64,000 nucleotides of DNA from Fulvia fulva. Taxonomy: Eukaryota > Ascomycota > Dothideomycetes > Mycosphaerellales > Mycosphaerellaceae. How positions within the stretch are numbered: the stretch's first letter is position 1; each line of letters starts with the position of its first letter. This document shows, in pieces, positions 42,547-43,967 of this stretch. Location of the stretch: NCBI RefSeq assembly GCF_020509005.1, contig NC_063016.1, positions 3,286,001 to 3,350,000 on the forward strand. The letters run 5' to 3'. A program made the translations under genes and the position numbers. The notes under the pieces are model-generated. The model did no database searches and had not been told where the DNA came from. It worked only from the letters and a program-made list of their open reading frames with translations.

Positions 42547-43791
42547 GCACTGTCACTCGATGATACAGCATGCACAGGGAGACCACAAACGGACACACTC
42601 AATGCGGACTTTGCTATGTCCGCTCCGACATCATCCTGGCTGGGCTGCCGAATTGAACGAAGCTGTCACTGCCGAAGGATTGCGGTCAGGTTCCACTCTG
42701 CCAGATAGCCTTAGGGCTCCCTGGTACGCCACGAAACAAAGTTGCAATCCTCGCGATCCTTCCCGTCCGTCTTGCCATGTGGACCAAATTTGGCTTTCTT
42801 GGCGGGCAAGTCAGCTCAACGCCTTACCGCCGACTTTCCTCGATCAAGCAGGTCGTTATAGACTTTGGCTGGTCAGTGTCTCGACACGCAAGCTGGCCGA
42901 CGTAACACTTCCTGCCTTCCAGGTATGAATAATGTCGTCGACAATTTCCCGGATGTGCATTCGATCGGATGTCACGTCGGCCGTCAAGCCTTCTGACTAT
43001 CAGCATTATCATCTGCAGTAGCAGGATCCTACTTTGCCGGATTTGCCAGAATATGCATGAGCTCATGATCCTCTTACGGGGATGATCACAGCACAGTTGC
43101 ATGTATCACATCTCTGCAAGCTGCTTGGACGACGATCTTGCTACAGCGGAACACCGAATACATGTGGATTCTCTGACCGCTTGCCTACTATGGAAGGTAC
43201 TGCGGACACCCATCGTGCATCAGACCTGGCTCTATACGGGCAAGGGTTTTGGATCCTTAGCTCAATGTTCAGAGGTCAGCGCTACGGGGTGACTTCGCTC
43301 CTTGCATGAACTGCCCTCCTCCAGGATGAAGGATGCTGCATGCCACCGGACCTGGAAGGAATGGCTTGGAAAGCTGACCGGTATGCCTTTTAAGGAAGAT
43401 CTCACGGCATGCCATGGATCTGAGGAGTGGGAGAAGCAGATGCGAGGGAATTGTTAAGAGGAGGAACGTCGGACATGAGCTGGCGGTGAAGAGTAGGACA
43501 ATCGGTATGAAGCGCAAGCCTTGGCAGTGACGAAAGACTCTTTTACGTCGCCATGCCTCCATGCCGAACCCCAAACCATACGATACACCGGTTCCAGGAC
43601 AGATGACTGCTGCTACAACGTCCAGACCACATCATCTGTTACTGGCCTGGTGCACGGACTGCATCGGCAAGCCGAGCCTTTGCCGGAAAGCAGAGATTTC
43701 GCCCGCTACAAGCCCATATATACGATTACAAACTGCATTAACTTCAATACCAACAATAGATATTTCAAATATCACGCACATCATATTGCTG
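42547..43791. other. Intergenic, no gene seen
   Basis: Short frames with no bias between the transcription factor relic and the tRNA gene. Confidence 0.4.
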
Positions 43792-43828
43792 TCTTCATTG
43801 GTTTAGTGGTTAGAATTTCCGCTTGTCA

Positions 43829-43840
43829 TTAAATTGCGAG
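43829..43840 (+). other. Probable canonical 12-nt tRNA intron
   Basis: Insert ttaaattgcgag directly 3' of A37, the standard site for nuclear tRNA introns cut by the tRNA endonuclease. Its removal gives the normal loop TTGTCAC. Confidence 0.65.
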
Positions 43841-43851
43841 CGCGGGAGACC

Positions 43852-43907
43852 GTAAGGATCACCCAGAACATCTTCTATACCATAACACATGCTGACGGCC
43901 TCACTAG
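43852..43907 (+). other. Spliceosomal-type intron inside the tRNA T-stem
   Basis: 56 nt starting GTAAGG and ending CACTAG, with GCTGAC 12-17 nt before the 3' end. These are the same donor, branch point and acceptor, at the same spacing and length, as in the protein-gene introns of this window. Exact removal restores perfect T-stem pairing. It is not at a site used by known nuclear fungal tRNA introns. Confidence 0.75.
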
Positions 43908-43961
43908 TGGGTTCGATTCCCAGATGGAGAGTTCTACAATGAGTATCAGGCTCAGGTCATC

Positions 43962-43967
43962 TTTTTT
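43962..43967 (+). terminator. Candidate Pol III terminator
   Basis: Run of six T on the sense strand, 31 nt after the tRNA 3' end; a usable but somewhat distant RNA polymerase III stop. Confidence 0.5.

Follow-up and report, generated by a model that had tools for sequence, protein, structure and literature searches.

The tRNA-Asp gene of the window

The window, that is, the whole 64,000-nt stretch of DNA that was analysed (C5:3286001-3350000), lies on contig C5 of the Race 5 assembly of Fulvia fulva (Cladosporium fulvum), which causes leaf mould of tomato, whose 67,169,167 bp in 14 contigs made up the searched genome. Positions 43792-43931 of its forward strand (+) carry a gene for tRNA-Asp(GUC), referred to here as Asp-1, which was recognised by reading and by ARAGORN on its 72-nt form and which has the cloverleaf, the GUC anticodon, G73 and G10-U25. 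Exon 1 (43792-43828, +; nt 1-37) comprises the 5' strand of the acceptor stem, the D arm and the anticodon GTC at nt 34-36, with pairing assigned by eye, and is followed by a canonical 37/38 intron of 12 nt, TTAAATTGCGAG (43829-43840, +); exon 2 (43841-43851, +; nt 38-49) holds the 3' strand of the anticodon stem, the variable region and the first T-stem base, C49; and exon 3 (43908-43931, +; nt 50-73) holds the remaining T arm with an intact B box, GGTTCGATTCC, the 3' strand of the acceptor stem and G73. Exons 2 and 3 are separated at 49/50 by a 56-nt ectopic intron of spliceosomal type (43852-43907, +), assigned from the restoration of the cloverleaf and from its motifs: a donor-like site GTAAGG (43852-43857, +), a branch-site-like CTGAC (43892-43896, +) whose A at 43895 is 12 nt from the intron end, and an acceptor AG within CACTAG (43906-43907, +). 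A TATA-like element of putative function, ATATAT (43716-43721, +), is located 76 nt upstream of the tRNA, and a T6 run resembling a Pol III terminator is found downstream (43962-43967, +).

The initial annotation had described the same gene and the same 56-nt block (GTAAGG..GCTGAC..CACTAG), and both were recovered exactly as described; its further claim that cutting the block out restores the T-stem CTGGG/CCCAG was also borne out, the borders being unable to slide by reading. Its account of the gene thus held for the block at 49/50 and was incomplete in overlooking the canonical 12-nt intron at 37/38. When both inserts are removed, a 72-nt mature tRNA is obtained, which ARAGORN calls tRNA-Asp(gtc). 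By cloverleaf score, removal of the 56 nt is joint best among 4254 distinct deletion products, the tie being with a 57-nt deletion that starts one base earlier. The mature sequence differs from those of the other three tRNA-Asp genes described below and pairs in all four stems by reading; in the ViennaRNA minimum-energy fold, the D arm is not formed.

Default ARAGORN and Rfam at the gathering threshold called no tRNA anywhere in the window. With long anticodon introns allowed, ARAGORN called the unspliced Asp-1 as Asp(gtc) with a misplaced intron of 61 nt, and in the genome search with Rfam RF00005 the gene scored 24.8 bits, below the cut-off of 29. A 161-base query around the ectopic intron matched only itself in a genome DNA search that skipped very common words; the near-identical copies of the block that had been proposed as a check were thus absent from that search, and the idea that the intron is a recent introner copy was set aside.

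The tRNA-Asp family

Four tRNA-Asp genes were found by genome patterns, and all four contain ectopic GT-AG introns (one, three, two and three, respectively). In addition to Asp-1, with its single ectopic intron at 49/50, these are Asp-2 (C1 near 3.508 Mb; introns at 11/12, 27/28 and 45/46), Asp-3 (C1 near 11.249 Mb; introns at 27/28 and 51/52) and Asp-4 (C12 near 2.458 Mb; introns at 10/11, 27/28 and 51/52), where all positions follow our own numbering. The non-canonical sites within this family are thus the D arm, 27/28, the variable region and the T-stem. Each of the four also has an intron at 37/38, of 12, 18, 18 and 18 nt. A search for further tRNA-Asp(GUC) copies with and without the insert had been suggested at the outset, and it yielded three more copies, all interrupted, and none intact.

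No intact tRNA-Asp was found by genome patterns with up to 3 mismatches or by the anticodon-arm search. A 21-mer running from the D arm to the anticodon matched only Asp-1 in the genome at up to 3 mismatches, and a looser pattern over the same region gave 29 matches (Asp-1 at 0 mismatches and 28 at 3), compared with 48 for the reversed control. The uninterrupted variable-plus-T arm gave 31 matches at up to 3 mismatches compared with 12 in the control, and inspection of the surroundings of 30 of the 31 revealed an intact tRNA-Asp in none. The anticodon arm with a gap of 0-30 nt at 37/38 gave 9 matches compared with 7 in the control; all 9 were inspected and 4 were tRNA-Asp. A model of the mature tRNA-Asp, run on 9 sequence sources, matched its own building sequences and other tRNAs and added nothing further, and BLAST with the 72-nt mature sequence of Asp-2, Asp-3 and Asp-4 returned zero matches, a weak negative in that the run was made without a positive control. 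Of 1234 candidates in the generic tRNA search, 63 were scored; some stretches of the genome read as N, and the patterns could overlook an intact tRNA-Asp that is very divergent. Because all four genes found are interrupted and no intact one was found, survival of the fungus requires that at least one interrupted tRNA-Asp gene is spliced.

Several smaller features of this family were noted by reading. The D-arm introns of Asp-2 (11/12) and Asp-4 (10/11) lie one base apart and share the donor GTCAGT, an apparent case of intron sliding. An acceptor-stem mismatch, C4.A69, is common to Asp-2, Asp-3 and Asp-4, while Asp-1 is fully paired; similarly, a Glu-like gene (L024, 1501-1604) has a C3.A70 mismatch in its acceptor stem by eye. 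A C-to-U edit would convert these C.A mismatches to U-A pairs.

Other interrupted tRNA genes

The curated set comprises 29 ectopic introns in 18 tRNA genes, namely 4 Asp, 4 Gly(GCC), 2 Val(AAC), Leu(AAG), Leu(CAA), 3 Thr(AGT), Thr(CGT), Pro(CGG) and Ala(CGC); it is neither a census nor a random sample, and ambiguous loci were excluded. A B-box pattern gave 88 rows compared with 101 for the reversed control, 42 of the 88 passed T-stem pairing, and 20 stretches were examined; L021, L024, L041, L044, L046, L101, L102, L103 and a tandem family do not enter any of the counts. The possibility of a chance insert in Asp-1 was rejected on the strength of the 28 further blocks of like anatomy in 17 other tRNA genes.

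For tRNA-Thr(AGU), a 30-nt pattern with up to 3 mismatches found three genes (control 0), and the D arm is interrupted in all three; this pattern would miss genes with an interruption inside those 30 nt. Gly(GCC) (L030) and Val(AAC) (L005) are also represented by intact copies, and genes free of ectopic introns occur in further isotypes, for example Cys, Tyr and Ala(AGC). The second ectopic intron of the Ala(CGC) gene adjoins the canonical site, at 38/39 by our own reading, and none of the 29 is at 37/38. The sole U6 match in the genome is uninterrupted (47 of 3200 candidates scored), and the notion that such introns are the general state of Pol III genes was rejected on this ground.

Anatomy and borders of the ectopic introns

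Canonical eukaryotic tRNA introns lie at 37/38, follow no GT-AG rule and are removed by the tRNA endonuclease, while a GT donor, a branch motif and an AG acceptor are the signals of U2 introns. The ectopic introns differ from the canonical tRNA introns in position and in their GT-AG ends; the canonical 37/38 introns of the interrupted genes measure 12 to 65 nt where read, and the ectopic ones 49-62 nt, with a median of 53 (n = 29). GT..AG is present in 29/29, the curation having admitted GT-AG alone; G is at +5 in 28/29, and the 3' ends are CAG in 18, TAG in 9 and AAG in 2. In 27/29, the motif CTRAY occurs with its A 10-12 nt from the 3' end, the exceptions being the second intron of the Pro(CGG) gene, which has no such motif near its 3' end, and the GlyB intron, which has TTAAC. 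Branch spacing was no criterion of the curation script, though branch-like motifs had been noticed earlier while reading; at 3/256 per intron, its chance occurrence would be about 3e-50 if the introns were independent, which paralogous introns are not.

The donors are looser than the ascomycete consensus, given as GURWGY in the accessible part of PMC8469720, while the branch-to-acceptor spacing is tight. The consensus is fully matched by 13/29 ectopic introns, and C or T is found at +3 in 10/29 (GTCAGT four times, GTTCGT three times, and GTCCGT, GTTTGT and GTTAGT once each). The longest T run within any ectopic intron is 4.

The borders were examined in two ways that do not presuppose GT-AG. 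Firstly, 11 of the introns are at sites uninterrupted in a paralogue, and a GT-AG placement was possible in 11/11, with 1-4 equivalent placements each; the joint chance is about 1e-24 if they are independent, although descent may reduce them to perhaps 6-7 separate insertions. Secondly, a scan of all 30-110 nt deletions, scored by cloverleaf pairing and invariant bases with GT-AG not assumed, placed the curated GT-AG removal best or joint best in 18/29 and unique best in 5; for the remaining 11 introns, 1 to 63 deletions scored better, the worst cases being the second and third introns of Leu(CAA) (46 and 63 better) and the Thr(CGT) intron (39 better). In addition, ARAGORN with an anticodon intron of 0-100 nt allowed recognised all 18 spliced forms as tRNA, 17 of them with the expected isotype; the form of Asp-1 retaining the 12-nt intron was miscalled Ser, and was called Asp after its removal too. 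With the same setting, no gene was called in 13/18 unspliced forms.

The initial annotation had likened the block to mRNA introns of neighbouring genes in signals, spacing and length. A comparison with mRNA introns of the same genome by ORF bridging yielded 3/58 ORF pairs compared with 1 for the control motif, which is uninformative, and when 30 window ORFs were scanned with Pfam, split genes were too few for an mRNA-intron set; 8/10 PF00118 matches cover nearly the whole domain uninterrupted, while the PF00071 genes are split. The available text of PMC10823647, a study of five isolates, reports a mean intron length of 79 bp and, for the Race 5 gene set, a BUSCO completeness of 98.9%.

Signs of function

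Exons and introns of these genes have evolved differently. The mature sequences of Asp-2, Asp-3 and Asp-4 are identical across 72 nt, but comparison of their 27/28 introns reveals differences at 14/47, 10/50 and 13/50 aligned positions (20-30%); for the Asp-2 intron, Fisher values are 6e-7 against Asp-3 (14/47) and 7e-5 against Asp-4 (10/50). Similarly, the mature sequences of Gly A-D are identical across 72 nt, and their introns show 71-83% identity over the aligned columns. In neither group has the mature sequence thus decayed relative to paralogues, as would be expected of a pseudogene. Neither the Thr A/B introns, which share a site, nor the introns of the Val 46/47 pair align better than shuffles (p 0.54 and 0.14).

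A Pol III-type run of T5 or longer lies within 80 nt downstream of 15/18 interrupted genes, compared with 1.7% of random window stretches, and for a TATA-like hexamer in the 120 nt upstream the figures are 9/18 and 2.0%; the flanks of some interrupted genes are related, so that these two counts are not fully independent. By our own numbering, the A box is interrupted by 8/29 ectopic introns, and this could make transcription by Pol III less efficient. All 18 genes have an intact B box, and none of the 29 introns lies inside nt 52-62; this avoidance is not counted as evidence because the B-box pattern search itself demanded an intact B box.

Proposed mechanism and its alternatives

The combined pattern of motifs, exons and copies makes it very probable that the ectopic introns are functional introns of tRNA genes that are removed by the spliceosome, and with comparable assurance Asp-1 can be regarded as one of four found tRNA-Asp(GUC) genes, all with short U2-type introns at non-canonical positions. 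The initial annotation had left two possibilities for Asp-1, splicing or death of the gene; the absence of any intact tRNA-Asp from the searches, the identical exons with diverged introns and the motifs at fixed spacing favour the former. In the proposed pathway, Asp-1 would be transcribed by Pol III from its internal A and B boxes, and the ectopic introns would be taken out by the spliceosome via a lariat; the exons would then fold, the ends would be trimmed by RNase P and RNase Z, and the tRNA endonuclease would finally excise the 37/38 intron. Since the ectopic introns split the arms, spliceosomal removal must come before folding and most other maturation.

It appears very unlikely that the ectopic introns are excised by the tRNA splicing endonuclease or some other protein enzyme, as happens in Cyanidioschyzon or archaea, and that GT-AG is a remnant of their origin. 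Ectopic endonuclease-type introns are indeed known in archaea and a red alga, and in the Guillardia nucleomorph such introns often have no defined bulge-helix-bulge, according to the accessible sections of PMC3978253; moreover, the genes studied here also have canonical 37/38 introns. The initial annotation had proposed examining both borders for a bulge-helix-bulge. The strict test was passed by 0/29 ectopic introns and is uninformative because 0/10 canonical introns pass it either, so that the ectopic failure says little. A relaxed test was passed by 2/29 ectopic introns, at a background of 5.7%, compared with 4/10 canonical introns, and the expected structure was thus not found at the borders beyond background. 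Furthermore, introns that have diverged still retain the donor, branch and 3' motifs at constant distances, although an endonuclease would not need this, and the yeast enzyme is described as cutting at 37/38 only in the available part of PMC4033280.

Transcription by RNA polymerase II, giving capped precursors that are spliced like mRNA without any participation of Pol III, is equally improbable. It would fit the mRNA-like character of the introns, the interruption of the A box in Asp-2, Asp-4, both Leu genes and Thr A-C, and the TATA-like elements, which lie 40-96 nt upstream in the 9/18 genes that have them; however, the excess of downstream T5 runs described above and the lack of T5 in any ectopic intron speak against it, as does the intact B box, a count biased by the search. 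The least probable explanation, that the interrupted genes are dead copies hit by introns while unseen intact genes supply tRNA-Asp, could draw on the intact genes for some interrupted isoacceptors such as Gly(GCC) and Val(AAC), on the limited share of candidates scored in the generic search and on the common C4.A69 mismatch, but it was judged unlikely for Asp-1 and its paralogues since exons are identical while introns diverge, where decay would be expected throughout, and since no intact tRNA-Asp emerged from the 3-mismatch and anticodon-arm searches and terminator-like runs are kept in 15/18 genes.

Under spliceosomal removal, the ectopic introns would probably have arisen from repeated intron gain followed by fixation. 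Intron gain in protein genes of Fulvia fulva through introner-like elements has been reported in the accessible part of PMC4457414.

Comparison with known systems

The closest precedent is U6 of Schizosaccharomyces pombe. It has been reported that U6 of fission yeast, a Pol III RNA, contains an mRNA-type intron (PMC10484740, in the part available); as in F. fulva, a structural RNA gene of Pol III would thus carry a spliceosomal intron that needs removal for function. According to the same source, the S. pombe case consists of one intron in one RNA and is thought to derive from reverse splicing near the catalytic site, whereas in F. fulva 29 introns are spread over 18 tRNA genes belonging to several isotypes, with up to three per gene, and its own U6 match is uninterrupted.

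Archaea, Cyanidioschyzon merolae and the Guillardia nucleomorph resemble F. fulva in having tRNA introns outside 37/38, some genes with several introns and a large share of genes affected, as described in the accessible sections of PMC3978253. The introns of those systems are mostly tied there to endonuclease splicing at a bulge-helix-bulge; in contrast, the ectopic introns of F. fulva show this structure at background level only and bear spliceosomal signals.

Introner-like elements, which also occur in Fulvia fulva and its relatives, represent a recent multiplication of spliceosomal introns, with copies in protein genes that reach 99% identity, as far as the available part of PMC4457414 describes them. 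Unlike these elements, the Asp-1 intron has no second copy in the DNA search, and intron pairs at shared tRNA sites have diverged.

Novelty and meaning

Teaching presents spliceosomal introns and tRNA introns as two distinct systems, each with its own enzymes. Among the matches listed in the open-access literature, no earlier description of spliceosomal introns in nuclear tRNA genes was found, and the word tRNA is absent from the main text of the F. fulva genome papers PMC9453070 and PMC10823647. Spliceosomal introns, and a Pol III gene with one, are known already; as far as could be seen, their presence in tRNA genes and throughout whole isoacceptor families is new.

It is likely, though with somewhat less assurance than the removal itself, that at least two whole isoacceptor families, Asp-GUC and Thr-AGU, can be produced only if the spliceosome splices Pol III transcripts; that translation is then tied to spliceosome capacity; that repeated intron gain, up to three per gene, has created a third class of tRNA introns beside the endonuclease-type and the self-splicing ones; and that this perhaps extends to relatives. 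The sequence evidence suggests that translation in F. fulva depends on the spliceosome for making its tRNAs. If so, the spliceosome would act on tRNA precursors, and the supply of an essential tRNA could come under the control of splicing; Pol III genes would be able to gain spliceosomal introns many times, which bears on the origin of new introns; and F. fulva would offer a natural system for studying how the spliceosome handles a transcript that lacks the normal Pol II setting. Real genes would also escape gene finders in which eukaryotic tRNA introns are expected at 37/38 alone. In the accessible part of the tRNAscan-SE 2.0 paper, noncanonical tRNA introns are described for archaea (PMC8450103).

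Other tRNA-like sequences

Several further tRNA-like sequences were encountered in the genome searches. L097, L104, L106, L107, L109, L110 and L040 are tandem or dispersed units of about 120-150 nt, GGAGAGGTCGTCCAA..GGTTCAAGTCCTTCCCACTCC, in which the acceptor and T arms are paired and the anticodon arm carries a large insert; they are possibly a tRNA-derived repeat. L041, L044 and L046 are tRNA-like in their acceptor, D and T arms and have in common, within the anticodon region, CACAT(A/G)TGAG with long inserts after it. In addition, six equal-score matches of 115 nt to tRNA-Trp(CCA), L015-L020, are located on six contigs, each with a 41-nt intron according to ARAGORN, and may be a family of mobile copies.
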